DNA of 64,000 bases from positions 26,233,515 to 26,297,514 of the forward strand of contig OZ024748.1 in NCBI GenBank assembly GCA_964016885.1, given 5' to 3'. The position numbers and the translations under genes are program-made. Under the pieces are notes generated by a model that was not told the origin of the DNA, searched no databases, and saw only the letters and a program-made list of their open reading frames with translations. Shown here piece after piece: positions 13,043 through 64,000 of this stretch (the first letter of the stretch is position 1; each line of letters begins with the position of its first letter). This DNA is from Eledone cirrhosa (taxonomy: Eukaryota; Mollusca; Cephalopoda; Octopoda; Eledonidae).

Positions 13043-13043
<1 letters not shown>

Positions 13044-14972: not shown

Positions 14973-14999
14973 ATAGTGTTTTATATTTATCTAAAAACC

Positions 15000-17680: not shown

Positions 17681-17694
17681 ATATACATATATAC

Positions 17695-18000: not shown

Positions 18001-18552
18001 AATGCTATGGAGATGTAGCAGACTTTGTATTTGTTCTGGATTCCTCTAGCAGTATTTGGCCTCCTGATTATGAAAGACTACGGTCATTTGTTAATAATTT
18101 TGCACAAAATTACGATATTGGTCAAGGACCATGTCAGATAAAAATGAGTGTGATATCGTACAGTGACAAGGCCCACATAGACATACCATTGGATAAATTC
18201 AAAAACAGGCAGGCTGTCTCAGATGCAATAAAAAAAGTCCCTTATAGAATGGGACAGACAAACACAGCTGCTGCTCTGGCTCTTACAAAGAAAGTTTTTG
18301 AACGCCCTTACCCACAACCTGAAAGACCTCAAGTTGCCATTATTGTCACTGATGGAGTATCAGACAATCCTCTACAAACAAGAAGAAATGCACAGAAACT
18401 AAAGGATGCTGGCATCCATACTTATTCTGTCGGAGTTGGAAACAATGTTGATTTAAATGAATTAGTGGACATTACCAGTGAGTATCCACAAGGAGTTGTT
18501 CGTGTACCCAGCTACAGAGCTCTTGAGAAAATTGCTATCAGCTTTAACGTCA
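18001..18552 (+). CDS. Exon encoding a von Willebrand factor A domain (giant mucin-like gene)
   Basis: This 552-bp exon encodes one complete vWA domain of about 184 residues, a fold used for metal-dependent binding of matrix proteins outside the cell. Counting the Cys codon at 18,003 as residue 1, I see beta-strand 'DFVFVLDSSSSIW' with MIDAS Asp13, Ser15 and Ser17, 'GQTNTAAAL' with MIDAS Thr86, and 'VAIIVTDGVSD' with MIDAS Asp117. All metal ligands are present, so the site should be functional. Cys1 and Cys44 are the only cysteines noticed. Both borders are phase 1, the usual symmetric arrangement for shuffled vWA exons in matrilins, collagens and similar proteins. The donor is GTGAGT at 18,553. 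Joining base 18,552 to 20,621 keeps the frame and leads into the giant Thr-rich exon. No signal peptide is visible; it must lie in earlier exons outside the window or unrecognised upstream. Domain identity is confident; the ligand is unknown. Confidence 0.93.
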
Positions 18553-18656
18553 GTGAGTAGCCATTTTTTACTATATTCAAAATTATAATTCCTATTATTC
18601 TATTTTCAAAATATATTTTCAAGATTATAATTAACATTTTGTTTGGCTGAAGCATT

Positions 18657-18755
18657 TATTGAAGAAGGGTTTATAGTTAAGGGTACTTAACTATTTTAAT
18701 TATTATTCTATTAAGAAGGGTTTATAATTAAGGGTACTTAACTATTTTGTTTTAA
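18657..18755. repeat. Two-copy tandem duplication in the intron
   Basis: 'aagaagggtttatagttaag' plus 'ggtacttaactatttt' occurs near 18,662 and again near 18,714, with a single substitution in the shared core. Confidence 0.8.
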
Positions 18756-18793
18756 CTACCATTTTTCTTTGAACCATCCACAATTAACATAAC

Positions 18794-18966
18794 TAATTAC
18801 CATATTTCCCAGCACCGAAGATGCTTTTCCTAAATTTTTGACAACCAAAAATTTGAAAAAAACTAATAAACAACCTTCGGCCTCCAGGGCGCATGGTAGA
18901 TTTTTGAGACTTATTTTAGGGAAAAAAAAGTAGCGTTTTCGACGCCGGGAAATACGGTAATTAATT
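18794..18966. mobile_element. MITE with about 35 bp terminal inverted repeats
   Basis: Left end 'taattaccatatttcccagc' + 'accgaagatgc' pairs with right end 'gcgttttcgacgccgggaaa' + 'tacggtaatta'. The length is about 170 bp and it is non-coding. TAATTA at both ends may be part of the repeats or a target duplication. Confidence 0.75.
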
Positions 18967-19131
18967 AATCCATTAATTGTGAACCTACCCAAAACATACC
19001 CAAAACTGGTTCTATTACAGTGTTCAAATGTCAATTGAAATCTTAGACTGAAATCTCATCACAGATAATATTGAATTTCAATAGTTAAATATTTGTATTT
19101 TATTATTGAGATAGAAGTTGGAGGGAGGTGT

Positions 19132-19335
19132 ATTGGCAGTATTAGTAGAGCATTGGACATGCTTTGTGACACATAGTTATGGCCCTTTATGTTTGGAATT
19201 CAAATCCAGCCGAGGTTAACTTTGGCTTTCATCCTTCTAGGGTTGATAAAATAAACCACCTCTGGGGTTTATTTAATCAACTTTTCCAGATCGACTTCCA
19301 AATTGCAGACCATGAAAACCATGTGTGGTGCACCA
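19132..19335 (+). mobile_element. SINE remnant in the intron
   Basis: 'attggcagtattagtagagc', a degenerate box B ('gaattcaaatccagccg') and 'tggctttcatccttctaggg' place it with the tRNA-derived SINEs at 4,697 and 5,148. The 3' part is diverged ('ggttgataaaataaaccacc'). Confidence 0.75.
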
Positions 19336-19870: not shown

Positions 19871-20190
19871 AACTTGGCAGAATCATTACAACATCAGATA
19901 GAATGCTTTGAGGCATTTGTTCCAGCTCTCTGCTGTATCAGTTCAAATCATTCCGAGGACAACTTTGCCTTTCATCAATTAAAAGTCAATAAAAAAGTAC
20001 CAGTCTAGTACTGGGGTCGATTCTTCCGCTATATCTTTTTCTGACTTTGTTTCGCTAACTTTCTATCTTTCTCTGGAAGAAATCTGCTATATTCAGACCT
20101 GAAAAGATGGGCACTATCCAAGAAATGCTGTATGTCACTACAGCACCTCTACAACCCCATCAGGAGTTATGAGACTTCTCCTCCTACCTA
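19871..20190 (+). mobile_element. tRNA-derived SINE, second family, in the intron
   Basis: Same body as 5,148-5,455: 'cttggcagaatcattac', 'caactttgcctttcatcaat', 'gtaccagtctagtactgggg', 'ggaagaaatctgctatattc', 'catcaggagttatgagactt'. Confidence 0.8.
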
Positions 20191-20591
20191 TGGAAGAAGA
20201 GATTTACAATACAGAGAAGACTTACAAGATAGAGGAAAAACGGGTGGTGTGGGGGTTCTACAAGGTTTGCAGACTATAGAGTAGAAAGAAACCAATATTA
20301 TGCAGAATTATGTAAATAGAATAAAATTGATCCTTTTAACTCATTTGAAACCAAACTGGCTGAAACCAGCCGTGGTTTTAAGATACAAAGCTGTCTATTT
20401 TTAAGTATTTCTGTATTTATGTAGGAACATTCGTTAAGTTATGTTCCAAACACTTGCTTAATGAAAAAGTTATTTATATTACAAAATCCCTTTATAGTGG
20501 AGAGCTGACAAATTAGATTTGGAGTAAAATGGAGAGGGATAAAACAAAATAATGCAAAAGACTACCTACTATATAACATTATGTTGAAATA

Positions 20592-20620
20592 TACTAACAT
20601 ACTTCTTAATTTTTCTATAG
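20592..20620 (+). other. 3' splice site of the giant exon
   Basis: Exact TACTAAC branch site at 20,592-20,598 followed by a T-rich tract and AG at 20,619-20,620. The phase matches the vWA exon donor. Confidence 0.85.
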
Positions 20621-23600
20621 AGAAGATGACAACATCCGCGTATGGACCAACCACAGAAGGGATACATAAGGTAACGTCAAATATATTTTATCAACTTTCA
20701 TCAAAAAAAAATATTGAAATCACAACACCATCACAAAAGCCTGCTATTACATTAACATTCGAAAAGAAAAAAAAAGGTGGGGAAAAAGAAGACAAAACAC
20801 AAACACTGACGACAGGGGAACCAATCATAACATCACCAATGGTTAAACGAACAACAATTCTATTTAAGACCACAGCTTTCATGACAACTAGTGAAAGACC
20901 TACCATAACCGCTATAGCTAAAACACCTACCACAAAAACTGCTACTAGAGAAAAAACAAATACCACAACAACTACAGGTACAACACCTACCATGATAGTT
21001 ACAGGTACAACACGTACCACAACAGTTACAAGTACAACACCTACCACAACAGTTACAGGTAAAAAACCTACCACAACAGTTACAGGTACAACATCTACCA
21101 CGACAACTACAGGTTTAACACCTACCATGACAACTATAGGTACAACACCTACCACAAAAACTACTGGTACAACACCTACCATGACAGCTACAGGTACAAT
21201 ACCTACCATAACAACTACAGGTAGAACACCTATCATAACAACTACTGGTAAAACACCTACCATAACAACTACAGGTACAACACCTACCACAACAACAACA
21301 GATACAACATCTACCACGACAACTACAGGTACAACACCTACCACAACAACTACAGGTACAACACCTACCACAACAGGTACAACACCTAACATGACAGTTA
21401 CAGGTACAACACCTACCATCACAACTACAGGTGCAACACCTACCATAACAGCTACAGGTACAATGGCTACCACAATATTTACAGTTACAACAGCTACCGC
21501 AACAACTACAGGTACGACACCTACCATAAATACTACAGGTACAACACCTACCACGACAACTACAGGTACACCAGCTACCACAACAGTTACAGGTACAACA
21601 CCTACCACAACAACAGGTACAACACCTACCACAACAACAACAGGTACACCACCTGCAACAACAACAACAGGTACAACACCTAACACAACAACTACAGGCA
21701 CAACACCTACAGGCACAACAACTACAGGCACAACACCTACCACAATAACTACAGGTACAACACCTACCATAACAACTACAGGTACAACACCTACCACAAC
21801 AACTACAGGTACAACACCTACCATAAAAACTACAGGTACAACACCTACCATAACAACTACAGGTACAACACCTACGACAACAACTACAGGTACAACATCT
21901 ACCAAAACAACAAGTACAACACCTATCACGAAAACTACAGGTACAACACCTACCACAACAACTACAGGTACAACACCTAACATGACAGTTACAGGTACAA
22001 CATCTACCAACACAACTACAGGTACAACACCTACCACAACAACTAGAGGTGCAACACCTACCATGACAGCTACAGGTACAACGGCTACCATAAAATCTAC
22101 AGGTACACCACCTACCACAACAGTTACAGGTACAACACCTACCACAACAACAACAACAGGTACAACACCTACCACAACCACTACAGGTACAACACCTACC
22201 ACAAAAACTACAGGTACAACACCTAACATGACAGTTACAGGTACAACACCTATCGCAACAGTTACAGGTAAAACACCAACCACAAAAACTACAAGTAAAA
22301 CAGGTACCATAACAACTACAGGTACAACACCTACCACAAAAGCTACAGGTACAACACACACCATAAAACCTACAGGTACAACACATACCATAAAACCTAC
22401 AGGTACAACACATACCATAACAACTACAAGTACAACACCTACCATAACAATTACAGGTACAACACCTACCACAACAACTACAGGTATAACACCTACCAAA
22501 ACAAGTACAGTTACAACACCTAGCACAAAAACTACAGGTACAACACCTACCACAACAGTTACAGGTACAACTACCATGACAACTACAGGTGCAACACCTA
22601 CCACAATAGTTACAGATAAAAGACCAACCACAACAAAAAGTACAACACCTACCACAAGTACAGGTACAACACCTACCACAACAGATACAGGTACCACACC
22701 TGCAGTTACAACATCTACAACAACAGCTACAGGTACAACACCTACCATGCCAACAACAGGTACAGCACCTACCACAACAACTACAGGTACAGCACCTACA
22801 ACAACAACTACAAGTAAAGCACCTATCATAACAACTACAGGTACAACACCTACTTTGAAAGTTACTACACCAACCATGAAAACTACAGGTACAACACCTA
22901 CCATGACAGTTACTGGTACAACACCTACCACAACAACTGCAGGTACAACAACTACCAAAACAACACCTACAGGTACAGCAACTACTATGATTGTTACAGG
23001 TACAGCACCTACCATGACAATTACAGGTGCAACACCTACCACAATCGTTACAGGTGCAACACCTACCATGACAACTACAGGTACAACACCTACCACAACA
23101 AGTACAGTTACAACATCTACCACAACAAGTCCAACACCTATCACAACAACTACAGATACAAAACCAACAACAACAAGTACAACACCTACTACAACAACTA
23201 CAGGTACAACACCTACCACAACAACAAGTAAAACACCTACCACAACTACAGGTACAACCGCTACAAAAACGCCTACCATGTCAACTACAGGTAGAGCACC
23301 TATCATAACAACTACAGGTACAACACCTACAACAACAACTACAGGTACAACACCTACCATAACAACTACAGGTACAACACCTACCATAACAACTACAGGT
23401 ACAACACCTACCATAACAACTACAGGTACAACACCTACCACAACAACTACAAGTACAACATCTACCACAACAGTTACAGGTACACCACCTATTACGACAA
23501 CTACAGGTACAAGACCTACCGTAACAACTACAGGTACAACACGTACCACAACAACAGGTACAAAACGTACCACAACAACAAGTACAACACCTACCACAAC

Positions 23601-26600
23601 AACAACAACAGGTACAACACCTGCCACTCCAACTACAGTTACGACACCTACCATAACTACAAAACCTACCACAACAAATACAACACCTAACACAACAGTT
23701 ACAGGTACAAAACCTACCACAACAACTACAATTACAACACCTACCACAACAACTACAGGTAGACCACCTACCAGAACAACTACAGGTACAACACCTACCA
23801 CAACAGCTACAGGTCCAACACCTACCATGAGAGCTACAGGTACAACGGCTACCACAACCACTACAGGTACAACACCTACCACAACAGTTATAGATACAAT
23901 ACCTACCACAACAACTACCAAAACTACAGTTACAACACCTACCATGACAGTTACAGGTACAACACCTTCCATGACAGTTACAGGTACAACACCTACCACA
24001 ACAACAACAGATACAACATCTACCACGACAACTACAGGTACAACACCTACCACAACAACTACAGGTACAACACCTACCACAACTACAGGTACAACACCTA
24101 ACATGACAGTTACAGGTACAACACCTACCATCACAACTACAGGTGCAACACCTACCATGACAGCTACAGGTACAACGGCTACCACAATATTTACAGTTAC
24201 AACAGCTACCGCAACAACTACAGGTACGACACCTACCATAAATACTACAGGTACAACACCTACCACGACAACTACAGGTACACCAGCTACCACAACAGTT
24301 ACAGGTACAACACCTACCAGAACAACAGGTACAACACCTACCACAACAACAACAGGTACAACACCTGCAACAACAACAACAGGTACAACACCTGCAACAA
24401 CAACAACAGGTACAACACCTACCATAACAACTACAGGTACAACACCTATCACGACAACTACAGGTACAACACCTACCACAACAACTACAAGTACAACACC
24501 TAACACAACAACAGGTACAACACCAACAACAAAAACTACAAGTAAAACACGTACAATAACTACAGGTACAACGCCTACAACAAAAACTACAGGTACAACA
24601 CCTACAGGAACAACACCTACCACAACAACTACCATAACAACTACAAGTAAAACACCTACCACAACAACTACAACACCTACCAAAACAACTACAGTTACAC
24701 CAGCTACAGGTACAACACCTACCACAACAACTACAGGCACAACACCTACCACAACAACTACAGGCACAACACCTACCACAATAACTACAGGTACAACACC
24801 TACCATAACAACTACAGGTACAACACCTATCACAACAACTACAGGTACAACACCTACCACAACAACTACAGGTACAACACCTACCATAAAAACTACAGGT
24901 ACAACACCTACCATAACAACTACAGGTACAACACCTACGACAACAACTACAGGTACAACACCTACGACAACAACTACAGGTACATCTACCACAACTACAG
25001 GTACAACATCTACCAAATCAACAAGTACAACACCTATCACGACAACTACAGGTACAACACCTACCACAACAACTACAGGTACAACACCTAACATGACAGT
25101 TACAGGTACAACATCTACCAACACAACTACAGGTACAACAACTACCACAACAACTAGAGGTGCAACACCTACCATGACAGCTACAGGTACAACAGCTACC
25201 ATAAAATCTACAGGTATAACACCTACCACGACAACTACAGGTACACCACCTACCACAACAGTTACAGGTACAACACCTACCACAACAACAACAGGTACAA
25301 CACCTGCAACAACAACAACAGGTACAACACCTGCAACAACAACAACAGGTACAACACCTACCACAACAACTACAGTTACAACACCTACCACAACAACTAC
25401 AGTTACAACACCTACCACAACAACTACAGGTAGACCACCTACCACAACAACTACAGGTACAACACCTACCACAACAGCTAGAGGTCCAACACCTACCATG
25501 AGAGCTACAGGTACAACGGCTACCACAACCACTACAGGTACAACACCTACCACAACAGTTACAGGTACAACACCTACCACAACAACAGGTACAACACCTA
25601 CCACGACAACAACAGGTAGAGCACCTATCACAACAACTACAGGTACAACACCTACCACAACAGTTATAGGTACAATACCTACCACAACAACTACCACATC
25701 TACAGTTACAACACCTACCATGACAGTTACAGGTACAAAACCAACCACGAAAACTACAGGTACAACTCCTATCATGACAGTTACAGGTACAACACCTACC
25801 ACAAGAACTACAGGTACAACACCTACCATAACAGCTACAGGTACAAAACCTACCACAACAACAACAGGGACAACACGTAACAAAACTACAGGTACAACTA
25901 CCATGACAGTTACAGGTACAACGGCTACCACAATATTTACAGTTACAACACCCACCGCAACAACTACAGTTACAACACCTGCCATAACAACTACAAGTAC
26001 AACACCTAGCACAACAACTACAGGTACAACACCTACCACAAAAGTTACAGGTACAACACCTAGCACAACAACAGGTACAACACGTAACACAACAACAGGT
26101 ACAACACTTACCATAACAACTACAGGTACAAAACCTATCACAACTACAGGTACAACATCTACCACTACCACTACAGGTACAACACCTACCACAACAACTA
26201 CAGGTTCAACACCTACCATGAGAGTTACAACATCTACCACAACTACAGGTACAACACCTACCACAACAACAACAGGTACAACACCTACCATGAAAACTAC
26301 AGGTGCAACACCTACCACAATAGTTACAGAGACAACACCTACCATGACAACTACAGGTACAACACCTACCATAACAACTACATGTACAACACCTACCATA
26401 ACAGCTACAGATACAACACATACCACAACAAAAAGTACACCTACCACGACAAGTACAACGCATAGTACCACAACTACAGGTACAACACCTAACACAACTA
26501 CAGGCACAACACTTACCACAACTACAGGTACAACACCTACCACGATCACTACAGATAAAACACCTACCATAACTACAGGTACAGCACCTACCATAACAGT

Positions 26601-29600
26601 TACAGGGACAACACCAAACACAACAACAACAGGTACAACACCTACCATAACAACTACAGATACACCTACAAGAAAAACTACAGCTACAACACCAACCATG
26701 AGAACTACAGATACAACACCTACCACAGCAACTACAGGTACAACACCTACCATGGCAACTACAGGTGCAACAACTACCACAACAGTTACAGGTACAACAC
26801 CTACCACAAAAACTACACGTACAACACCTACCAGGACAACTACAGGTACAACACATACCATAACAATTACAGGTACAACACCTACCACAACAATAGGTAC
26901 AACACCTGACACAACAACTACAGTTATAACACCTACCATAACAACTACTGGTACAACACCTTCCATAACAACTACACGTACAACACCTACCACAACAAGT
27001 ACAACACCTACCACAACTACAGGTACAACACCTACCACAACAACTACAGTTACAACACCTACCACAACAGTTACAGGTACAACACCTGCCACAACAATAA
27101 CAGGTACAACACCTACCACAACAACAGCTACAACACCTACCGTAACAACTGAAGGTACAACACCTACCACAAAAACTACAGTTACAACATTTACCACAAC
27201 AAGTACAACACCTACCACAACAGTCACAGGTATAACACCTTCCATATCACCTACAGTTACAACACCTACCACAACAACAGGTACAACACCTACCATAATA
27301 TCTACAGGTACAACATCTACCATTACAGCTACAGGTACAACACCTAGCACAACAACTACAGGTACAACACCAACCACGAGAACTACAGGATCAACACCTA
27401 CCATGACAACTACAGGTACAACACCTACCATAACAGCTACAGGTACAATAACTACCAGAACAACAGCAGATACAACACCTACCATAACAACTACAGGTAC
27501 AACACCTAGCACAACAACTACAGGCACAACACCTACCATGACAGTTACAGGTACAACACCAGCCATGAGAACTACAGGTACAAAACCTACCATGACAACT
27601 ACAGGTAAAACACCTACCATAACAGCTACAGTTACAACTACTAGGACAGTTACAGGTAGAACACCTAGAACAACAACTACAGGTATAACACCTACCACAA
27701 AAGTTACAGGTACAACACCTACCACAAAAACTACAGGTACAACACCTACAAACACAACTACAGGTGCAACACCTACCACAACAGTTACAGGTACAACACC
27801 TATCTCAACACTTGCAGTTACAACATCTACACCAACTACAGGTACAGCACCTACCACAACAACACGTACAACACCTACCACGAAAACTACAGGTACAACA
27901 CATACCACAACTACAGGTACAACACCTACCATAACAACTACAGGTGCAACACCTACCACAACAACAGGTACAACACCTGCCACAACAACTACAGTTATAA
28001 CAGCTACCAAAACAACTACAGGTACAATACCTACCATAACAACTACAGCTACAACACCTACCACGACAACTACAGTTACAACAACTACCACAACAGTTAC
28101 AGGTACAAAACCGACAGTTACAACAGCTACCACAACAAGAACAGGTACAACACCAACCACAACAAGTACAACACCTACCACAACAACTAGAGGTACAACA
28201 CCTCCCATAACAGCTACAGGTACAACACCTACCAGAACAGTTATAAAACCTACCACATCACTTACAGGTACAACACCTACCATATCACCTACAGTTACAA
28301 CACCTACCACAATAACAGGTACAACACCTAGCACAACTACAGGTACAACGCCAACCAAAATAACTACAGGTACAACACCTACCATGACAACTACAGCTAC
28401 AACACCTACCATAACAGCTACAGGTACAAAACCTACCATGACAGTTACAGGTACAACACCAGCCATGACAACTACAGGTACAACACCTACCATGACGACT
28501 ACAGGTAAAACACCTACCATAACAGCTACAGGTACAATTACTATGACAGTTACAGGTAGAACACCTACAACAACAACTACAGGTACAACTCCTACCATAA
28601 CAACTACAGGTGCAACACCTACCACAACAGTTACAAGTACAACAGCTACCATGACAACTACAGGTGCAACACCTACCACAACAGTTACAGGTACAACACC
28701 TACCACAACACCTGCAGTTAGAACACCTACAGTTACAACACCTACCACAACAACTACAGGTACAACACCTCCCACAACTACAGGTACAACACCTACCACA
28801 AAAACTGGTACAACAGCTGCCACAACAACTACAGTTATAACACCTACCATAACAACTACAGGTACAACACCTACCACGACAACTACAGGTACAACACCTA
28901 CAGTTACAACACCTACCACAACAGTTACAGGTACAAAACCGACAGTTACAACAGCTACCACAACAAGAACAGGTACAATACCAACCACAAGTACAACACC
29001 TACCAAAACAACTACAGGTACAACACGTACCACAACAACTACAGGTACAACACCTACCACGACCATTACAGATACAACACCTACCATAACAACTACAGGT
29101 ACAACACCTACCACAACAACTAGAGGTACAACACCTCCCATAACAGCTACAGGTACAACACCTCCCATAACAGCTACAGGTACAACACCTCACATAACAG
29201 CTACAGGTACAACACCTACCACATCACTTACAGGTACAACACCTACCATATCACCTACAGTTACAACACCTACCACAATAACAGGTACAACACCTAGCAC
29301 AACAACTACAGGTACAACGCCAACCACAAGAACTACAGGTACAACACCTACCATGACAACTACAGCTACAACACCTAGTATAACAGCTACAGGTGCAAAA
29401 CCTACCATGACAGTTACAGGTACAACACCAGCCATGACAACTACAGGTACAACACCTACCATGACGACTATGGGTAAAACACCTACCATAACAGCTACAG
29501 GTACAACACCTAACACAACAACTACAGGTACAACTACTATGACAGTTACAGGTAGAACACCTACAACAACACCTACAGTTACAACACCTACCACAACAAC

Positions 29601-32600
29601 TAGTAGTACAACACCTACCACAAAAACTGGTACAACACCTGCCACAACAACTACAGTTACAACACCTACCATAACAACTACAGGTACAACACCTACCATA
29701 ACAACTACAGGTACAACACCTACCATAACAACTACAGCTACAACACCTACCACGACAACTACAAGTACAACACCTACAGTTACAGGTACAAAACCTACAG
29801 TTACAGGTACAACACCTTCCATATCACCTACAGTTACAACATCTACTACAACAAGAAGAGGTACAACACCTACCATAACATCTACAGGTACAACACCTAC
29901 CACAACTATAAGTACAACACCAACCATGAGAACTACAGGTAAAACACCTACCATAACAGCTACAGTCACAACACCTACCAGAACAACAATAGGTACAACA
30001 CCTGCCATAACAACTACAGCTACAACACCCACATTGACAGTTACAGGTACAAATCCTACCACAACAACTACAGGTACAACACCTACCATAACAACTACAG
30101 GTGCAACACCTTCCAGGACAACTACAAGTGCAACACTTACTACAACAGTTACAGGTACAATACCTATCACAACACTTGCGGTTTCAACACCTAGCACTAC
30201 AATTACAGGCACAGCACCTACCACAACTACACGTACAACACCTACCACGACAACTACAGGTACAACACCTACCATAACAACTACAGCTACAACACCTACC
30301 ACAACAACTACAGGTACAACACCTACAGTTACAACACCTACCACAACAGTTACAGGTACACCGACAGTTACAACACCTACCACAACAAGAACAAGTACAC
30401 CTACCATAACAACTACAGGTACAACACCTACCATAACAGTTACAGGGACAACACCTAACACAACAACTACAGGTACAACACCTATCATAACAACTACAGG
30501 TACAACACCTCCCATAACAGCTACAGGTACAACACCTAGCATGACAACTACAGGTACAACACCTACCAGAACAGTTACAGGTACAACACCTACCATATCA
30601 CTTACAGGTACAACACCTACCACAACAACAGGTACAACACCAACCACGGGAACTACAGGTACAACACCTACCATGATAACTACAGGTACAACACCTACCA
30701 GAACAGCTACAGGTACAACACCTACCAGAATAACAGGTACAACACCTACCATGACAGTTACAGGTACAACACCAGCCATGAGAACTACAGGTACAACACC
30801 TACCATGACAACTACAGGCAAAACACCTACCATAACATTTACAGGTACAACACCTAAAACAACAACTACAGGTACAACTACTATGACAGTTACAGGTAGA
30901 ACACCTACAACAACAACTACAGGTACAACACCTCCCACAACAGTTATAAGTACAATACCTACCATAACAACTACAGGTGCAACACCTACCACAACAGTTA
31001 CAGGTACAACACCTACCACAACACCTGCAGTTAGAACACCTACCACAACAACTACAGGTACAACACCTACCACAACTACAGGTACAACACCTACCATAAC
31101 AACTACAGTTACAACACCTACCACAACACCTGCCACAAAAACTACAGTTATAACACCTACCATAACAACTACAGCTACACCACCTACCACTTCAGCTACA
31201 GGTACAACACCTACCATGACAACTACAGGTAAAACACCTACCATAACAGCTACAGGTACAACACCTAACACAACAACTACAGGTACAACAACTACTAGGA
31301 CAGTTACAGGTAGAACACCTACAACAACAACTACAGGTACAACACCTACCATAACAACTACAGGTGCAACACCTACCACAACAGTTACAAGTACAACACC
31401 TGCAGTTAGAACACCTACCACAACACCTACAGTTACAACACCTACCACAACTACAGGTACAACACCTATCATAACAACTAGAGTTACAACACCTACCATA
31501 ACTACAGTTACAACACTTACCATCACAACTACAGGTGCAACAGCTACAACAACAGTTACAGGTACAACACCTACCACAACAACTACAGGTAGAGCACCTA
31601 CCACAACAACTACACGTACAACACCTACCACGACAACTACAGGTACAACACCAACCACAACTACAGGTACAACACCTACCACAACAGTTATAAGTACAAC
31701 ACCTACCACAACAGTTACAGAAACAACACCTACCACAACATCTGCAGTTAGAACACCTACCACAACACCTACCACAACTACAGGTACAACACCTATCATA
31801 ACAACTAGAGTTACAACACCTACCATAAGAACTACAGTTACAACACCTACCATCACAACTACAGGTGCAACACCTACCACAACAGTTACAGGTACAACAC
31901 CTACCACAACACTTGCAGTTACAACACCTACCACAACTACAGGTACAGCACCTACCACAACAACTACACGTACAACACCTACCGCGACAACTACACGTAC
32001 AACACCTACCACAACTACAGGTAAAACACCTACCATAACTACAGTTACAACACCTACAACAACAAGAACAGGTACAACACCTACCACACCTACCATAAAA
32101 ACTACAGGTACAACACCTACCACGACCACTACAGATACAAAACCTACCACAACAACTACAGGTACAACATCTAACACAACAACTACAGATACAACACCTA
32201 CCACAACAACTACAGATACAACACCTACCATAACAACTACAGGTACAACACCTACCATAACAGCTACAGGTACAACACCTACCAGAACAACAACAGGTAC
32301 AACATCTACCATAACAACTACAGGTACAACACCTAGCACAACAATTACAGGTACAACACCTACAACAACAACTACAGGTATAACACCTACCATAACAACT
32401 ACAGGTGCAACACCTACCACAACAGTTACAAGTACAACACCTACCATAACAACTACAGGTGCAACACCTACCACAGCAGTTACAGGTACAACACCTACCA
32501 CAACACCTGCAGTTAGAACACCTAACACAACAACTACAGGTACAACACCTATCATAACAACTAGAGCTACAACACCTACCATCACAACTACAGGTACAAC

Positions 32601-50600: not shown

Positions 50601-53600
50601 ACCACAACAAACAAGATCTCCTGAAGAAACAACTCTGTCTACTCAGGTAGAGGACATCGAAAAGGTGAAACCAACACAAGTTGCTAGCACAATGCATACA
50701 TCACCTGAAACAACAGTTGTTTCATCTCCAAAACACACCTCTATAACACCTACAGATGAACTTATTAGTATTGAATATACAACTGAGACATCAACTGAAA
50801 AACCACTACCTATCAAGACACCTACAAGCACAGCAGAAAAGATCACTGAAACTAGAACAGACACAACAGCAACAACATCACAGGTTCCTTCAACAAGTGA
50901 AATCCATATAGAAACTCCTAAATCTACTTCTGAACTGCCTCATATAACTGACATTGAAACAAGTACAGTGGAAAGAACAACACAACTTACAGATATTGAA
51001 ACTGAGCGCACAACTCAGACAGAACTTACACCACAACAAACAAGATCTCCTGAAGAAACAACTCTGTCTACTCAGGTAGAGGACATCAAAAGAGTGACAG
51101 CAACACAAGTTGCTAGCACAATGCATACATCACCTGAAACAACAGTTGTTTCATCTCCTGAACACACTTCTATAACACCTACAGATGAACTCACTATTAA
51201 AGAATACACAACTGAAACATCAACTGAAAAATCACTACCTATGACAACACCTACAAGCACAGCAGAAAAGATCACTGAAACTAGAACAGACACAACAGCA
51301 ACAACATCACAGCTTCCTTCAACAAGTGAAATCCATATAGAAACTCCTAAATCTACTTCTGAACTGCCTCATATAACTGACATTGAAACAAGTACAGAGG
51401 AAAGAACAACACAAGTTACAGATATTGAAACTGAGCACACAACTCAGACAGAAATTACACCACAACAAACAACATCTCCTGAAGAAACAACAGTGTCTAC
51501 TCAGGTAGAGGACATCGTAAAGGTGACACCAACACAAGTTGCTAGCACAATGCATACAACAACTGAAACAACAGTTGTTTCATCTATTGAACAAACCTCT
51601 GTAGCACCATCTTCAGAGGAACTCACTAGTATAAAATATACAACTGAGACATCAACTGAAAAATCACTACCTACAATAACACCAACAAGCACAGCAGAAA
51701 AGATCACTGAAACTATAACAGACACAACAACAACAACATCACAGCTTCCTTCAACAAGTGAAATCCATATAGAAACTCCTAAATCTACTTCTGAACTGCC
51801 TCATATAAGTGAGATTGAAACAAGTACAGTGGAAAGAACAACACAATTTACAGATATTGAAACTGAACGCACAACTCAGACAGAAATTACACCACAACTA
51901 ACAACATCTCCTGAAGAAACCACTCTGTCTACTCAGTTAGAGGACATCAAAAGAGTGACAGCAACACAAGTTGCTAGCACGATGCATACATCACCTGAAA
52001 CAACAGTTGTTTCATCTCCTGAACACACCTCTATAACACCTACAGATGAACTCACTAGTATTGAATATACAACTGAGACATCAACTGAAAAATCACTACC
52101 TATGACAACACCTACAAGCACAGTAGAAAAAATCACTGAAACTAGAACAGACACAACAGCAACAACATCACAGCTTCCTTCAACAAGTGAAATCCATATA
52201 GAAACTCCTAAATCTACTTCTGAACTGCCTCATATAAGTGACATTGAAACAAGTACAGTGGAAAGAACAACACAAATTACAGATATTGAAACTGAGCGCA
52301 CAACTCAGATAGAAATTACACCACAGCAAACAACATCTCCTGAAGAAACAACACTGTCTACTCAGGTAGAGGACATCGTAAAGGTGACACCAACACAAGT
52401 TGCTAGCACAATGCATACATCACCTGAAACAACAGTTGTTTCATCTCCTGAACACACCTCTATAACACCTACAGATGAACTTACTAGTATTGAATATACA
52501 ACTGAGACATCAACTGAAAAACCACTACCTATCAAGACACCTACAAGCACAGCAGAACTGATCACTGAAACTAGAACAGACACAACAGCAACAACATCAC
52601 AGCTTCCTTCAACAAGTGATATCCATATAGAAACTCCTAAATCTACTTCTGAACTGCCTCATATAACTGACGTTGAAACAAGTACAGTGGAAAGAACAAC
52701 ACAAGTTACAGATATTGAAACTGAACGCACAACTCAGACAGAACTTACACCACAACAAACAAGATCTCCTGAAGAAACCACTCTGCCTACTCAGGTAGAG
52801 GACATCGAAAGAGTGACAGCAACACAAGTTGCTAGCACAAGGCATACATCACCTGAAACAACAGTTGTTTCATCTCCTGAACACACTTCTATGACACCTA
52901 CACATGAACTCACTATTAAAGAATACAAAACCGAGACATCAACTGAAAAATCACTACCTATGACAACACCTACAAGCACATCAGAAAAGATCACTGAAAC
53001 TAGAACAGACACAACAGCAACAACATCACAGCTTCCTTCAACAAGTGAAATTCATATTGAAACTCCTAAATCTACTTCTGAACTGCCTCATATAACTGAC
53101 ATTGAAACAAGTACAGTGGAAAGAACAACACAAGTTACAGATATTGAAACTGAGCGCACAACTCAGACAGAACTTACACCACAACAAACAAGATCTCCTG
53201 AAGAAACCACTCTGTCTACTCAGGTAGAGGACATCGTAAAGGTGACACCAACACAAGTTGCTAGCACAATGCATACATCACCTGAAACAACAGTTGTTTC
53301 ATCTCCTGAACACACCTCTATAACACCTACAGATGAACTTACTAGTATTGAATATACAACTGAGAGATCAACTGAAAAATCACTACCTATGACAACACCT
53401 ACAAGCACAGCAGAAAAGATCACTGAAACTAGAACAGACACAACAGCAACAACATCACAGCTTCCTTCAACAAGTGAAATCCATATAGAGACTCATAAAT
53501 CTACTTCTGAACTGCCTCATATAAGTGACATTGAAACAAGTACAGTGGAAAGAACAACACATATTACAGATATTGAAACTGAGCGCACAACTCAGACAGA

Positions 53601-56600
53601 ACTTACACCACAACAAACAACACCTCCTGAAGAAACCACTCTGTCTACTCAGGTAGAGGACATCGAAAGGGTGACAGCAACACAAGTTGCTAGCACAATG
53701 CATACATCACCTGAAACAACAGTTGTTTCATCTCCTGAACACACTTCTATGACACCTACACATGAACTCACTATTAAAGAATACAAAACTGAGACATCAA
53801 CTGAAAAATCACTACCTATGACGACACCTACAAGCACATCAGAAAAGATCAATGAAACTAGAACAGACACAACAGCAACAACATCACAGCTTCCTTCAAC
53901 AAGTGAAATCCATATAGAAACTCCTAAATCTACTTCTGAAATGCCTCATATAACTGACATTGAAACAAGTACAGTGGAAAGAACAACACAAGTTACAGAT
54001 ATTGAAACTGAGCGCACAACTCAGATAGAAATTACACCACAGCAAACAACATCTGCTGAAGAAAAAACACTGTATACTCAGGTAGAGGACTTCGTAAAGG
54101 TGACACCAACACAAGTTGCTAGCACAATGCATACATCACCTGAAACAACAGTTGTTTCATCTCCAGAACACACCTCTATAACACCTACAGATGAACTTAC
54201 TAGTATTGAATATACAACTGAGAGATCAACTGAAAAATCACTACCTATGACAACACCTACAAGCACAGCAGAAAAGATCACTGAAACTAGAACAGACACA
54301 GCAGCAACAACATCACAGCTTCCTTCAACAAGTGAAATCCATATAGAAACTCATAAATCTACTTCTGAACTGCCTCATATAATTGACATTGAAACAAGTA
54401 CAGTGGAAAGAACAAGACAAATTACAGATATTGAAACTGAACGCACAACTCAGACAGAAATTACACCACAACAAACAACATCTCCTGAAGAAACAACTCT
54501 GTCTACTCAGGTAGAGGACATCGAAAAGGTGACACCAACACAAGTTGCTAGCACAATGCATACATCACCTGAAACAACAGTTGTTTCATCTCCTGAACAC
54601 ACCTCTATAACAATTACAGATGAACTTACTAGTATTGAATATACAACTGAGACATCAACTGAAAAACCACTACCTATCAAGACACCTACAAGCACAGCAG
54701 AAAAGATCACTGAAACTAGAACAGACACAACAGCAACAACATCACAGCTTCCTTCAACAAGTGAAATCCATATAGAAACTCCTAAATCTACTTCTGAACT
54801 GCCTCATATAACTGACATTGAAACAAGTACAGTGGAAAGAACAACACAAATTACAGATATTGAAACTGAACGCACAACTCAGACAGAAATTACACCACAA
54901 CAAACAACATCTCCTGAAGAAACAACTCTGTCTACTCAGGTAGAGGACATCGAAAAGGTGACACCAACACAAGTTGCTAGCACAATGCATACATCACCTG
55001 AAACAACAGTTGTTTCATCTCCTGAACACACCTCTATAACAATTACAGATGAACTTACTAGTATTGAATATACAACTGAGACATCCACTGAAAAACCACT
55101 ACCTATAAAGACACCTACAAGCACAGCTGAAAAGATCACTGAAACTATAACAGACACAACAGCAACAACATCACAGCTTCCTTCAACAAGTGAAATCCAT
55201 ATAGAAACTCCTAAATCTACTTCTGAACTGCCTCATATAACTGACATTGAAACAAGTACAGTGGAAAGAACAACACAAGTTACAGATATTGAAACTGAAC
55301 GCACAACTCAGACAGAAATTACACCACAACTAACAACATCTCCTGAAGAAACAACTCTGTCTACTCAGGTAGAGGACATCGAAAAGGTGACACCAACAAC
55401 AGTTGTTTCATCTCCTGAACACACCTCTATAACACCTACAGATGAACTTACTAGTATTGAATATACAACTGAGACATCAACTGAAAAACCACTACCTATC
55501 AAGACACATACAAGCACAGCAGAAAAGATCACTGAAACTAGAACAGACACAACAGCAACAACATCACAGGTTCCTTCAACAAGTGAAATCCATATAGAAA
55601 CTCATAAATCTACTTCTGAACTGCCTCATATAACTGACATTGAAACAAGTACAGTGGAAAGAACAACACAAGTTACAGATATTGAAACTGAGCACACAAC
55701 TCAGACAGAAATTACACCACAACAAACAACATCTCCTGAAGAAACAACACTGTCTACTCAGGTAGAGGACATCGTAAAGGTGACACCAACACAAGTTGCT
55801 AGCACAATGCATACATCACCTGAAACAACAGTTTTTTCATCTCCAGAACACACCTCTATAACACCTACAGATGAACTTATTAGTATTGAATATACAACTG
55901 AGACATCAACTGAAAAACCACTACCTATCAAGACACCTACAAGCACAGCAGAAAAGATCACTGAAACTAGAACAGACACAACAGCAACAACATCACAGCT
56001 TCCTTCAACAAGTGAAATCCATATAGAAACTCCTAAATCTACTTCTGAACTGCCTCATATAACTGACGTTGAAACGAGTACAGTGGAAAGAACAACACAA
56101 GTTACAGATATTGAAACTGAACGCACAACTCAGACAGAAATTACACCACAACTAACAACATCACCTGAAGAAACAACTCTGTCTACTCAGGTAGAGGACA
56201 TCGAAAAGGTGACACCAACAACAGTTGTTTTATCTCCTGAACACACCTCTATAACACCTACAGATGAACTTACTAGTATGGAATATACAACTGAGACATC
56301 AACTGAAAAACCACTACCTATAAAGACACCTACAAGCACAGCTGAAAAGATCACTGAAACTATAACAGACACAACAGCAACAACATCACAGCTTCCTTCA
56401 ACAACTGAAATCCATATAGAAACTCCTAAATCTACTTCTGAACTGCCTCATATAACTGACATTGAAACAAGTACAGTGGAAAGAACAACACACGTTACAG
56501 ATATTGAAACTGAACGCACAACTCAGACAGAAATTACACCACAACTAACAACATCTCCTGAAGAAACAACTCTGTCTACTCAGGTAGAGGACATCGAAAA

Positions 56601-59600
56601 GGTGACACCAACAACAGTTGTTTCATCTCCTGAACACACCTCTATAACACCTACAGATGAACTTACTAGTATTGAATATACAACTGAGACATCAACTGAA
56701 AAACCACTACCTATCAAGACACCTACAAGCACAGCTGAAAAGATCACTGAAACTATAACAGACACAACAGCAACAACATCACAGCTTCCTTCAACAAGTG
56801 AAATCCATATAGAAACTCATAAATCTACTTCTGAACTGCCTCATATAACAGACATTGAAACAAGTACAATGGAAAGAACAACACAAATTACAGATATTGA
56901 AACTGAACGCACAACTCAGACAGAAATTACACCACAACTAACAACATCTCCTGAAGAAACAACTCTGTCTACTCAGGTAGAGGACATCGAAAAGGTGCCA
57001 CCAACACAAGTTGCTAGTACAATGCATACATCACCTGAAAGGACAGTTGTTTCATCTCCAGAACACACCTCTATAACACCTACAGATGAACTTACTAGTA
57101 TTGAATATAGAACTGAGACATCAACTGAAAAATCACTACCTACGATAACACCTAGAAGCACAGCAGAAAAGACCACTGAAACTATAACAGACACAACAGC
57201 AACAACATCACAGCTTCCTTCAACAAGTGAAATCCATATAGAAACTCCTAAATCTACTTCTGAACTGCCTCATATAACTGACATTGAAACAAGTACAGCG
57301 GAAAGGACAACACAAATTACAGATATTGAAACTGAACGCACAACTCAGACAGAAATTAGACCACAACTAACAACATCTCCTGAAGAAACAACTCTGTCTA
57401 CTCAGGTAGAGGACATCGTAAAGGTGACACCAACACAAATTGCTAGCACAATGCATACATCACCTGAAACAACAGTTGTTTCATCTCCAGAACACACCTC
57501 TATAACACCTACAGATGAACTTAGTAGTATTGAATATACAACTGTGACATCAACTGAAACACCACTACCTATAAAGACACCTACAAGCACAGCTGAAAAG
57601 ATCACTGAAACTATAACAGACACAACAGCAACAACATCACAGCTTCCTTCAACAAGTGAAATCCATATAGAAACTCCTAAATCTAGTTCTGAACTGCCTC
57701 ATATAACTGACATTGAAACAAGTACAGTGGAAAGAAAAACACAAGTTACAGATATTGAAACTGAGCGCACAACTCGGACAGAAATTACATCACAACAAAC
57801 AACATCTCCTGAAGAAACAACACTGTCTACTCAGGTAGAGGACATCGTAAAGGTGACACCAACACAAGTTGCTAGCACAATGCATACATCACCTGAAACA
57901 ACAGTTGTTTCATCTCCAGAACACACCTCTATAACACCTACAGATGAAATTACTAGTATTGAATATAGAACTGAGACATCAACTGAAAAATCACTACCTA
58001 CGATAACACCTACAAACACAGCAGAAAAGATCACTGAAACTATAATAGACACAACAGCAACAACATCACAGCTTCCTTCAACAAGTGAAATCCATATAGA
58101 AACTCCTAAATCTACTTCTGAACTGCCTCATATAACTGACATTGAAACAAGTACAGTGGAAAGAACAACACAAGTTACAGATATTGAAACTGAGCGCACA
58201 ACTCAGACAGAAATTACACCACAACAAACAACATCTCCTGAAGAAACATCACTGTCTACTCAGGTAGAGGACATCGTAAAGGTGACACCAACACAAGTTG
58301 CTAGCACAATGCATACATCACCTGAAACGACAGTTGTTTCATCTCCAGAACACACCTCTATAACACCTACAGATGAACTTACTAGTATTGAATATACAAC
58401 TGAGACATCAACTGAAAAACCACTACCTATAAAGACACCTACAAGCACAGCAGAAAAGATCACTGAAACTAGAACAGACACAACAGCAACAACATCACAG
58501 CTTCCTTCAACAAGTGAAATCCATATAGAAACTCCTAAATCTACTTCTGAACTGCCTCATATAACAGACATTGAAACAAGTACAGTGGAAAGAACAACAC
58601 AAGTTACAGATATTGAAACTGAGCGCACAACTCAGACAGAAATTACACCACAACAAACAACATCTCCTGAAGAAACAACTCTGTCTACTCAGGTAGAGGA
58701 AATCGAAAAGGTGACACCAACACAAGTTGCTAGCACAATGCATACATCACCTGAAACAACAGTTGTTTCATCTCCTGAACACACCTCTATAACACCATCT
58801 ACACACAAACTTACTAGTATTGAATATACAACTGAGATAACAACTGAAAAATCACTACCTATGACAACACCAACAAGCACAGCAGAAAAGATCACTGAAA
58901 TTAGAACAGACACAACAGCAACGACATCACAGCTTCCTTCAACAAGTGAAATCCATATAGAAACTCCTAAATCTACTTCTGAACTGCCTCATATAACAGA
59001 CATTGAAACAAGTACAGTGGAAAGAACAACACAAGTTACAGATATTGAAACTGAGCGCACAACTCAGACAGAAATTACACCACAACAAACAACATCTCCT
59101 GAAGAAACAACTCTGTCTACTCAGGTAGAGGAAATCGAAAAGGTGACACCAACACAAGTTGCTAGCACAATGCATACATCACCTGAAACAACAGTTGTTT
59201 CATCTCCTGAACACACCTCTATAACACCATCTACACACAAACTTACTAGTATTGAATATACAACTGAGATAACAACTGAAAAATCACTACCTATGACAAC
59301 ACCAACAAGCACAGCAGAAAAGATCACTGAAATTAGAACAGACACAACAGCAACGACATCACAGCTTCCTTCAACAAGTGAAATCCATATAGAAACTCCT
59401 AAATCTACTTCTGAACTGCCTCATATAACAGACATTGAAACAAGTACAGTGGAAAGAACAACACAATTTACAGATATTGAAACTGAACGCACAACTCAGA
59501 CAGAAATTACACCACAACTAACAACATCTCCTGAAGAAACAACACTGTCTACTCAGGTAGAGGACATCGTAAAGGTGACACCAACACAAGTTGCTAGCAC

Positions 59601-62600
59601 AATGCATACAACAACTGAAACAACAGTTGTTTCATCTATTGAACAAACCTCTGTAGCACCATCTTCAGAGGAACTCACTAGTATAAAATATACAACTGAG
59701 ACATCAACTGAAAAATCACTACCTACAATAACACCGACAAGCACAGCAGAAAAGATCACTGAAACTATAACAGACACAACAACAACAACATCACAGCTTC
59801 CTTCAACAAGTGAAATCCATATAGAAACTCCTAAATCTACTTCTGAACAGCCTCATATAAGTGAGATTGAAACAAGTACAGTGGAAAGAACAACACAATT
59901 TACAGATATTGAAACTGAACGCACAACTCAGACAGAACTTACACCACAACAAACAAGATCTCCTGAAGAAACAACTCTGTCTACTCAGGTAGAGGACATC
60001 GAAAAGGTGAAACCAACACAAGTTGCTAGCACAATGCATACATCACCTGAAACAACAGTTGTTTCATCTCCAAAACACACCTCTATAACACCTACAGATG
60101 AACTTATTAGTATTGAATATACAACTGAGACATCAACTGAAAAACCACTACCTATCAAGACACCTACAAGCACAGCAGAAAAGATCACTGAAACTAGAAC
60201 AGACACAACAGCAACAACATCACAGGTTCCTTCAACAAGTGAAATCCATATAGAAACTCCTAAATCTACTTCTGAACTGCCTCATATAACTGACATTGAA
60301 ACAAGTACAGTGGAAAGAACAACACAACTTACAGATATTGAAACTGAGCGCACAACTCAGACAGAACTTACACCACAACAAACAAGATCTCCTGAAGAAA
60401 CAACTCTGTCTACTCAGGTAGAGGACATCAAAAGAGTGACAGCAACACAAGTTGCTAGCACAATGCATACATCACCTGAAACAACAGTTGTTTCATCTCC
60501 TGAACACACTTCTATAACACCTACAGATGAACTCACTATTAAAGAATACACAACTGAAACATCAACTGAAAAATCACTACCTATGACAACACCTACAAGC
60601 ACAGCAGAAAAGATCACTGAAACTAGAACAGACACAACAGCAACAACATCACAGCTTCCTTCAACAAGTGAAATCCATATAGAAACTCCTAAATCTACTT
60701 CTGAACTGCCTCATATAACTGACATTGAAACAAGTACAGAGGAAAGAACAACACAAGTTACAGATATTGAAACTGAGCACACAACTCAGACAGAAATTAC
60801 ACCACAACAAACAACATCTCCTGAAGAAACAACTCTGTCTACTCAGGTAGAGGAAATCGAAAAGGTGACACCAACACAAGTTGCTAGCACAATGCATACA
60901 TCACCTGAAACAACAGTTGTTTCATCTCCTGAACACACTTCTATAACACCTACAGATGAACTCACTATTAAAGAATACACAACTGAGACATCAACTGAAA
61001 AATCACTACCTATGACAACACCTACAAGCACAGCAGAAAAGATCACTGAAACTATAACAGACACAACAGCAACAACATCACAGCTTCCTTCAACAAGTGA
61101 AATCCATATAGAAACTCCTAAATCTACTTCTGAACTGCCTCATATAACAGACATTGAAACAAGTACAGTGGAAAGAACAACACAAGTTACAGATATTGAA
61201 ACTGAGCGCACAACTCAGACAGAAATTACACCACAACAAACAACATCTCCTGAAGAAACAACTCTGTCTACTCAGGTAGAGGAAATCGAAAAGGTGACAC
61301 CAACACAAGTTGCTAGCACAATGCATACATCACCTGAAACAACAGTTGTTTCATCTCCTGAACAAACCTCTATAACACCTACAGATGAACTTACTAGTGT
61401 TGAATATACAACTGAGACATCAACTGAAAAACCACTACCTATCAAGACACCTACAAGCACAGCAGAAAAGATCACTGAAACTATAACAGACACAACAGCA
61501 ACAACATCACAGCTTCCTTCAACAAGTGAAATCCATATAGAAACTCCTAAATCTACTTCTGAACTGCCTCATATAACAGACATTGAAACAAGTACAGTGG
61601 AAAGAACAACACAAGTTACAGATATTGAAACTGAGCGCACAACTCAGACAGAAATTACACCACAACAAACAACATCTCCTGAAGAAACAACACTGTCTAC
61701 TCAGGTAGAGGACATCGTAAAGGTGACACCAACACAAGTTGCTAGCACAATGCATACATCACCTGAAACAACAGTTGTTTCATCTCCTGAACACACTTCT
61801 ATAACACCTACAGATGAACTCACTATTAAAGAATACACAACTGAGACATCAACTGAAAAATCACTACCTATGACAACACCTACAAGCACAGCAGAAAAGA
61901 TCACTGAAACTATAACAGACACAACAGCAACAACATCACAGCTTCCTTCAACAAGTGAAATCCATATAGAAACTCCTAAATCTACTTCTGAACTGCCTCA
62001 TATAACAGACATTGAAACAAGTACAGTGGAAAGAACAACACAAGTTACAGATATTGAAACTGAGCGCACAACTCAGACAGAAATTACACCACAACAAACA
62101 ACATCTCCTGAAGAAACAACTCTGTCTACTCAGGTAGAGGAAATCGAAAAGGTGACACCAACACAAGTTGCTAGCACAATGCATACATCACCTGAAACAA
62201 CAGTTGTTTCATCTCCTGAACACACCTCTATAACACCATCTACACACAAACTTACTAGTATTGAATATACAACTGAGATAACAACTGAAAAATCACTACC
62301 TATGACAACACCAACAAGCACAGCAGAAAAGATCACTGAAATTAGAACAGACACAACAGCAACGACATCACAGCTTCCTTCAACAAGTGAAATCCATATA
62401 GAAACTCCTAAATCTACTTCTGAACTGCCTCATATAACAGACATTGAAACAAGTACAGTGGAAAGAACAACACAAGTTACAGATATTGAAACTGAGCGCA
62501 CAACTCAGACAGAAATTACACCACAACAAACAACATCTCCTGAAGAAACAACTCTGTCTACTCAGGTAGAGGAAATCGAAAAGGTGACACCAACACAAGT

Positions 62601-64000
62601 TGCTAGCACAATGCATACATCACCTGAAACAACAGTTGTTTCATCTCCTGAACACACCTCTATAACACCATCTACACACAAACTTACTAGTATTGAATAT
62701 ACAACTGAGATAACAACTGAAAAATCACTACCTATGACAACACCAACAAGCACAGCAGAAAAGATCACTGAAATTAGAACAGACACAACAGCAACGACAT
62801 CACAGCTTCCTTCAACAAGTGAAATCCATATAGAAACTCCTAAATCTACTTCTGAACTGCCTCATATAACAGACATTGAAACAAGTACAGTGGAAAGAAC
62901 AACACAATTTACAGATATTGAAACTGAACGCACAACTCAGACAGAAATTACACCACAACTAACAACATCTCCTGAAGAAACAACACTGTCTACTCAGGTA
63001 GAGGACATCGTAAAGGTGACACCAACACAAGTTGCTAGCACAATGCATACAACAACTGAAACAACAGTTGTTTCATCTATTGAACAAACCTCTGTAGCAC
63101 CATCTTCAGAGGAACTCACTAGTATAAAATATACAACTGAGACATCAACTGAAAAATCACTACCTACAATAACACCGACAAGCACAGCAGAAAAGATCAC
63201 TGAAACTATAACAGACACAACAACAACAACATCACAGCTTCCTTCAACAAGTGAAATCCATATAGAAACTCCTAAATCTACTTCTGAACAGCCTCATATA
63301 AGTGAGATTGAAACAAGTACAGTGGAAAGAACAACACAATTTACAGATATTGAAACTGAACGCACAACTCAGACAGAACTTACACCACAACAAACAAGAT
63401 CTCCTGAAGAAACAACTCTGTCTACTCAGGTAGAGGACATCGAAAAGGTGAAACCAACACAAGTTGCTAGCACAATGCATACATCACCTGAAACAACAGT
63501 TGTTTCATCTCCAAAACACACCTCTATAACACCTACAGATGAACTTATTAGTATTGAATATACAACTGAGACATCAACTGAAAAACCACTACCTATCAAG
63601 ACACCTACAAGCACAGCAGAAAAGATCACTGAAACTAGAACAGACACAACAGCAACAACATCACAGGTTCCTTCAACAAGTGAAATCCATATAGAAACTC
63701 CTAAATCTACTTCTGAACTGCCTCATATAACTGACATTGAAACAAGTACAGTGGAAAGAACAACACAACTTACAGATATTGAAACTGAGCGCACAACTCA
63801 GACAGAACTTACACCACAACAAACAAGATCTCCTGAAGAAACAACTCTGTCTACTCAGGTAGAGGACATCAAAAGAGTGACAGCAACACAAGTTGCTAGC
63901 ACAATGCATACATCACCTGAAACAACAGTTGTTTCATCTCCTGAACACACTTCTATAACACCTACAGATGAACTCACTATTAAAGAATACACAACTGAAA
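20621..64000 (+). CDS. Giant mucin-like exon following the vWA exon, 3' end outside the window
   Basis: One exon, open in a single frame from the splice acceptor at 20,620 to the right edge, giving at least 43,380 bp and about 14,460 codons. I found no in-frame stop. Order of parts: a Lys/Thr/Ser-rich stem (20,621 to about 20,935); a degenerate 9-residue TGTTPTTTT-type repeat block (about 20,940-41,080); a linker with many N-glycosylation sequons (about 41,081-42,090); and an array of acidic 143-144-residue Thr/Ser/Glu-rich units (about 42,091 to beyond 64,000). Dense Thr/Ser/Pro predicts heavy O-glycosylation, as in mucins. With the vWA domain upstream, the protein is probably a secreted or surface extracellular mucin; this role is inferred. 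Joining exon base 18,552 to 20,621 gives an AAG codon and a continuous frame. Indels between repeat units are multiples of three, which supports coding use. A possible alternative donor (AAG|GTAACG) is at 20,671. C-terminal domains, membrane anchor or further vWA domains cannot be judged. Long minus-strand frames opposite are shadows. Confidence 0.88.
21301..25160 (+). repeat. Long-range duplications inside the 9-residue array (left part)
   Basis: Diagnostic runs recur in order: 'gatacaacatctaccacgac' at 21,301 and 24,010, and 'acagttacaacagctaccgc' at 21,481 and 24,193 (shift about 2.71 kb). 'actacaggcacaacacctac' followed by 'cacaataact' recurs near 21,721 and 24,758 (shift about 3.04 kb). 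The copies differ by small in-frame indels, so these are older duplications than those near 33-37 kb. Confidence 0.7.
32461..36976 (+). repeat. Nested recent duplications in the 9-residue array (345, 2,082 and 2,427 bp shifts)
   Basis: The marker 'tcgacagttacaacacctat' occurs at 32,791, 33,136 and 35,218. Sequence 33,097 to about 34,893 matches 35,179 to about 36,975 almost exactly; I noticed only three substitutions (for example 'acatctaca' versus 'acatctgca' near 34,170/36,252). Sequence 32,461 to about 33,090 matches 34,888 to about 35,517, and 32,752-33,090 matches 33,097-33,435. Parts recur again at about 37,580-38,460. Confidence 0.85.
41081..42090 (+). other. Unique linker between the two repeat arrays, rich in N-glycosylation sequons
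   Basis: About 335 residues without tandem order. By eye I count about 13 N-X-S/T sequons (for example NLT at 41,101, NNT near 41,203, NIT near 41,236, NMT near 41,302, NET, NKT, NVT near 41,782, NQT near 41,830). Lys, Glu, Ile and Leu are commoner than in the arrays and one Trp is present (41,350). No known domain is recognised. The right part grades into a diverged first copy of the 143-residue unit. Confidence 0.8.
45717..51217 (+). repeat. Higher-order repeat block of the 143-residue array, copied again at 58,500-64,000
   Basis: Unit variants recur in a fixed order of eight (five of 429 bp and three of 432 bp, 3,441 bp). The first copy is 45,906-49,346, and the second starts at 49,347 and diverges after about 51,480. 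The same order starts at 58,689 and again at 62,130. Positions 45,717-51,217 and 58,500-64,000 (shift 12,783 bp) are nearly identical; one substitution noticed is A at 48,366 versus G at 61,149. Confidence 0.88.
55365..56972 (+). repeat. Cluster of 393-bp short units
   Basis: Three units (from about 55,365, 56,187 and 56,580) lack 36 bp, so that 'acaccaaca' runs directly into 'acagttgttt'. This removes 12 residues, including the 'VASTMHTSP' segment, in frame. A full 429-bp unit lies between the first and second short units. Confidence 0.85.
58500..64000 (+). repeat. Second long copy of the higher-order block
   Basis: Counterpart of 45,717-51,217. The copy begins inside a unit, just left of 58,507, and is still matching at the window edge, so its true length is unknown. 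Confidence 0.85.

Follow-up and report, generated by a model that had tools for sequence, protein, structure and literature searches.

A 64,000-nucleotide window of Eledone cirrhosa DNA (the whole stretch analyzed, from contig OZ024748.1) contains an exon with a full-length vWA domain, followed on the same strand by a repetitive reading frame that is open to the window edge. We consider it likely, with a probability of roughly three in four, that these belong to a functional animal gene that has a repeat exon of at least 43.4 kb and encodes a giant mucin-like matrix protein, secreted or surface-located, with a vWA module. This reading is based on a stop-free frame that far exceeds simulated ones, with alignment gaps mostly in multiples of three and repeat lags that are all 0 mod 3; on a vWA domain whose phase 1-1 exon joins the giant frame without a stop; and on a Thr plus Ser content of 51%, for which canonical mucins and the VWA proteins of mollusc mucus offer precedent. 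Counted against it are the unconstrained residues, the susceptibility of the gap pattern to slippage, a long open frame on the minus strand, and the moderate acceptor at 20621. The features of the window are as follows.

633–901, 5578–6305 and 16189–16478, minus strand: LINE-type remnants with Pfam reverse transcriptase and endonuclease matches, the third below the cut-off
18001–18552, plus strand: vWA exon of 183 full codons (18003–18551), with both borders in phase 1
18553–20620, plus strand: putative intron of 2,068 bp, with a GTGAGT donor, TACTAAC at 20592–20598, and an AG acceptor at 20619–20620
20621–64000, plus strand: giant exon, its frame still open where the window stops and its 3′ end beyond it; 43,380 bp, with 14,459 whole codons counted from 20623
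20621–20960, plus strand: head of the giant exon, short, nonrepetitive and basic; 113 residues, net charge +10
20961–41114, plus strand: block A, 27-bp units (nine residues; Thr-rich, ...GTTP...); 6,717 residues, 60% Thr
41115–42115, plus strand: transition, nonrepetitive; 334 residues, 13 N-glycosylation sequons, and the sole Trp of the exon
42116–64000 (to the window edge), plus strand: block B, 429-bp (143-residue) units; 7,295 residues, net charge −805

The translated vWA exon matches the Pfam VWA profile (PF00092) essentially end to end (residues 7–177 on profile positions 1–171 of 174; E = 4.1e-33), and its score of 115.5 bits against a curated cut-off of 23.8 places it in the family. 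The translation contains a MIDAS-like set, D13-S-S15-S-S17, T86, and D117, which we take to fit the MIDAS pattern (D13-x-S15-x-S17, T86, D117). Its PDB sequence matches are led by COL6A3 (9han), followed by mussel PTMP1, and include integrin I domains. A single-sequence structure model was poor (pLDDT 48), and Foldseek with this weak model, for which the best 50 matches listed were chains with vWA/I domains, adds little on the question of a Rossmann-like fold. A tblastn search for a second vWA copy within the window returned only chance-level matches (E 4.2 and 5.7). Given the profile match, the module can fairly be called an adhesion domain, with its ligand a matter of prediction.

Elsewhere in the window, searches with Rfam (gathering scores) and ARAGORN returned 0 matches. 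The 130 open reading frames of at least 50 aa that overlap 1–18600 were inspected by eye, and Pfam searches of five of these yielded transposon-type matches in three (one below the cut-off) and none in two. A noncoding 48-bp tandem array of about 9.5 copies occupies 4021–4470; its 10 gaps are 1–2 nt long, and it was the noncoding comparison in the test of frame maintenance.

Splicing would combine the single base left over at the end of the vWA exon with the first two of the giant exon (from 20621), so the joined frame is open, encoding 14,643 residues with 0 stops. Ranked with consensus frequencies, the donor at 18552 places 63rd among 1241 GTs, the acceptor of the vWA exon at 18001 is 14th among 1155 AGs, and that of the giant exon at 20621 is 78th among 1155, which is only moderate; these appear to be good, not exceptional, splice sites. 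The TACTAAC is one of three such heptamers in 1–20620, and its branch A (20597) lies 22 bases upstream of the acceptor AG. The intervening sequence is, on these signals, a credible intron. Within it, at 19100–20040, are SINE-like repeats that we take to resemble cephalopod tRNA-derived SINEs; a literature text search on sequence of this type gave no match.

The giant exon encodes 14,459 residues with a polypeptide mass of 1.51 MDa, among which Thr and Ser account for 51% and Cys and Trp occur once each. Thr plus Ser reaches 63% in block A and 41% in block B, with Pro at 11% and 8%, respectively, constituting the long Thr/Ser/Pro array typical of a mucin; the repeats also share a single large exon in the manner of mucins (43,380 bp of open frame, with predicted splice ends). 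Block A additionally has about 8% Gly, a net charge of +233, and the one Cys, while the acidic block B is composed of 30% Thr, about 13.5% Glu, and 12% Ser. Alignment of block B resolved 50 whole units of 143, 144, or 131 residues. Three of these (u31, u33, and u34, at about 55200–56830) lack the same 12 residues (36 bp), which is an in-frame deletion common to a subfamily. With one Cys among 14,459 residues, the part of the exon seen could not accommodate vWD domains or a cysteine knot, the features of a gel-forming mucin. Inspection of the exon by eye revealed neither a signal peptide nor a transmembrane segment, nor any further domain. Pfam was run on two pieces totaling 1,458 of the 14,459 residues: 20623–22998 (792 residues) had no match, and 41002–42999 (666 residues) gave only DUF7109 below its cut-off (17.9 versus 27), which we took as composition noise.

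Over the 43,380 bp from 20621, the exon frame contains 0 stops, compared with 717 and 1009 in the other two plus-strand frames; measured from the preceding stop to the window edge, the frame (20509..63999, plus strand) comprises 14,497 codons. On the minus strand over this interval, stops lie as much as 12,141 bp apart, so composition alone can open long frames here. We compared the longest plus-strand open reading frames with those in Markov simulations (200 sequences per setting, orders 1 and 2), in which the maximum was 1518 nt for block A (20,151 seen), 393 nt for the transition (999 seen), 891 nt for block B (21,882 seen), and 1008 nt for the whole stretch (43,377 seen); these nulls overstate the contrast because they do not keep the tandem units. 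Under a null based on codon-position composition, 3.2 stops were expected in the head, 7.4 in block A, 10.6 in the transition, and 135.6 in block B, with 0 seen in each. A spectrum-matched test on the 50 block B units likewise predicted 5.9 nonsense changes among 144 variant alleles, and 0 were seen.

Length variation among the repeats is largely in frame. Distinct self-alignment gaps (HSPs of at least 200 columns and at most 99.5% identity) were multiples of three in 5545 of 6206 cases in block A and 130 of 163 in block B, versus 0 of 10 in the noncoding array; the remainder (661 of 6206 and 33 of 163) may represent alignment noise or compensated shifts. Triplet (ACN-like) slippage could itself favor such gaps in block A, and the control is small (10 gaps), which weakens this test. 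All ungapped self-pairs, counted within the identity bands used for pN/pS below, had a lag of 0 mod 3 (8142 + 138 in A, 405 + 246 in B), these being overlapping pairs that are not independent. Together, these results bear out the architecture given in a preliminary description of this DNA: a complete vWA exon with phase-1 borders, a consensus donor, TACTAAC and acceptor that would join it in frame to a frame open for at least 43,380 bp, at least about 14,600 residues in the window, and a 143-residue unit.

At the level of individual residues, selection left no trace that we could detect. Variant alleles in the 50 block B units comprise 109 nonsynonymous and 35 synonymous changes versus 105.8 and 32.4 expected, and variable columns are spread evenly over the three codon positions (41, 44, and 40). 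Naive pN/pS, computed from ungapped HSPs, was 1.85 and 1.47 in block A (identity bands of 80–90% and 90–98%, at least 150 bp) and 0.85 and 0.77 in block B (85–95% and 95–99%, at least 300 bp). Among block A units (457, loosely anchored), A-to-G changes occur at similar rates at codon position 1 (170/2285) and position 3 (111/1371), and C-to-T changes occur at a higher rate at position 2 (341/2285) than at position 3 (12/457); a Thr/Ile variant at unit codon 2 has T at the second base in 47.5% of these units. We rejected positive selection as an explanation for the block A ratios above 1, as the changes cluster at unit codons 2 and 4 and resemble subfamily variants. The allele split, pN/pS, and codon-position tests thus detected no constraint on residues in A or B, and the usual dN/dS proof of coding is removed. 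What is maintained is the frame and the bulk composition, not the individual residues, a pattern that would suit a glycan scaffold.

Block B is organized in 3441-bp higher-order blocks of eight 143-residue units each. Exact copies, sought from 300 bp up, extend to 3140 bp within 44637–64000, at lags of 3.4, 9.3, 12.8, and 16.2 kb; they include 3140 bp shared by 44637–47776 and 60861–64000 and 3124 bp shared by 44927–48050 and 48368–51491. At lag 12783, the exact stretches 45690–48366 and 48368–51217 leave one mismatch in about 5.5 kb, reaching the window edge. The full pair at this lag (43827–51217 and 56610–64000) is 98.7% identical, and 92 of its 93 mismatches fall, by subtraction, in the first 1.9 kb. 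In block A, too, neighboring sequences repeat exactly, over 745 and 725 bp at a lag of 2082. The block B pattern fits unequal exchange with gene conversion.

Near-identical blocks of several kilobases make the copy number in the assembly uncertain, and tandem repeats are a recognized source of assembly error (PMC6868369, as excerpted). The gene could therefore be real and the length of its exon an assembly product, with blocks duplicated or misjoined and true alleles shorter or longer. The exact copies in both arrays, and above all the 5.5 kb with one mismatch up to the window edge, are what this explanation would predict. However, the 92 mismatches at the start of the lag-12783 pair show that it is not one uniform duplicate, with the caveat that so sharp a switch could mark a bad join, and about 21.5 kb of open frame (20621–42115) precedes block B altogether. 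We regard an artifactual length as somewhat unlikely, but as a prospect to be taken seriously. Splicing within the exon, which would cut the long frame into shorter isoforms, is suggested by 443 CAGGTA motifs in block A (20961–41114), which resemble splice-site cores and lie in one codon phase, such that removal between any two would keep the frame. Yet T is scarce on the plus strand of block A (roughly 14%, from skews), and the consensus of its units lacks a long pyrimidine run, making such isoforms improbable.

The vWA and giant exons might also not be directly joined, with small exons between them or with each belonging to one of two neighboring genes. The junction is itself read from splice signals, and phase-compatible acceptors exist at 20657, 20660, and 20561; all three, however, score below 20621, the 18 open reading frames of at least 40 aa in 18600–20500 include no domain recognized by eye, and the head of the giant exon has no signal peptide by eye. 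An indirect connection is hence also doubtful, if marginally less so than internal splicing. Far less probable, to the point that we would be surprised by it, is that the arrays are noncoding satellite DNA, open by accident because their units are stop-poor and multiples of three. The absence of residue-level constraint, the 12-kb minus-strand frame, and the low number of block A codons within a single change of a stop (284 of 6717) are compatible with a satellite. Against this, the nonrepetitive transition is open despite the 10.6 stops expected, block B has no stop among 7295 codons of which 2054 are one step from one, and the vWA exon feeds exactly the frame of the giant exon.

The open part of the exon exceeds both the titin exon (about 17 kb) and the MUC16 exon (about 21 kb) against which the preliminary description measured it. 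Human membrane mucins have SEA, EGF, or transmembrane parts; those of MUC12, MUC16, and MUC4 have no counterpart seen in this window, where, unlike in human membrane mucins, a vWA domain leads into the repeats and a single exon holds two arrays of different chemistry. In collagen VI, whose COL6A3 (9han) provides the best PDB sequence match, vWA modules accompany a collagen helix, whereas here the vWA precedes a mucin-like array. On the part seen, the exon, which the window cuts, holds no size record: human MUC12 alleles run to 23,080 residues and span a size range of 55,233 bp (PMC13345508, a 2026 preprint, as excerpted), from which we conclude that some human exons probably exceed 55 kb. The same excerpt names a large VNTR exon as a common feature of canonical mucins and indicates that MUC12, MUC16, and MUC4, like the gene here, carry their PTS-rich tandem repeats within a single exon of very large size (PMC13345508). 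The spider aggregate glue spidroins AgSp1 and AgSp2 likewise attain extreme repetitive coding length, in a secreted glue, but they have a spidroin N-terminal domain, the 42,270-bp coding sequence of Argiope AgSp1 is divided between two similarly sized exons, and the excerpted text makes no reference to a vWA domain (PMC6553539). An AgSp1 exon length was not found in the excerpt of the Trichonephila silk paper PMC8022711.

Precedents for vWA domains in mollusc secretions come from excerpts of three studies, one reporting a VWA protein in snail mucus (PMC10475054), one giving a count of 11 for the type A domain in an octopus skin mucus proteome (PMC10138644), and a second octopus mucus study naming VWFA-domain proteins (PMC11431876). 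As would be the case here, the snail CAMP-related mucus VWA protein, Pif/BMSP, and mussel PTMP1 place a vWA in mollusc extracellular material, according to the excerpted texts. These passages describe lectin or fibrinogen C-termini in the snail CAMP proteins and, for CAMP, Pif/BMSP, and PTMP1, make no mention of an array of thousands of residues; the PDB chain of PTMP1 has 454 residues, versus an array of thousands here. Among the literature matches listed, as excerpted, we came across no vWA mucin whose exon is of comparable size, and PKZILLA is not mentioned in the best 20 of 2,198 literature matches. The gene looks like a strong candidate for a giant mucin, an extreme example of the mucin kind and not something wholly new. 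As far as the excerpted sources extend, what sets it apart from MUC12 and AgSp1 is a vWA immediately ahead of the repeats and an exon that combines two arrays of distinct chemistry.

Our working model retains the earlier proposal of a giant extracellular mucin with an adhesion domain as the best reading, in view of the composition, the phase-matched exons, the mostly 3n indels, and the absent stops; its extracellular destination and the partner of its adhesion domain stay at the level of prediction. Exons upstream of the window would be expected to supply a signal peptide, followed by the vWA domain and then by the single exon of at least 43.4 kb. The Thr-rich block A would be densely O-glycosylated, forming a stiff, hydrated bottle brush, and the acidic Thr/Glu/Ser block B would provide negative charge and bind water or cations. 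The vWA domain, with its intact-looking site for a divalent metal, may anchor the polypeptide to a component of the matrix, for instance collagen or a different glycoprotein. Selection would maintain frame and bulk composition, not individual residues, and length would change through unequal exchange of whole in-frame units. A more speculative extension, which we put forward tentatively and think unlikely to hold in full, is that one exon encodes a disulfide-poor block copolymer of about 6,700 Thr-rich residues (+233) and then at least 7,300 acidic ones (−805), tipped by a metal-dependent vWA, in which opposite-charge blocks and the vWA, and not cysteine cross-links, assemble the gel of a mollusc slime, glue, or egg coat. 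On this reading, with more array beyond the window, the exon may be among the longest coding exons of any animal.

If expressed, this gene would yield, mostly from one exon as far as seen, an invertebrate protein whose unglycosylated mass is at least 1.5 MDa. Such an exon, with its unusual two-block make-up, tests the limits to which translation, splicing, and repeat homogenization can extend one exon; it also appears to be under selection on frame and composition, not on sequence. Its product is a candidate polymer of mollusc mucus, glue, or egg coats.
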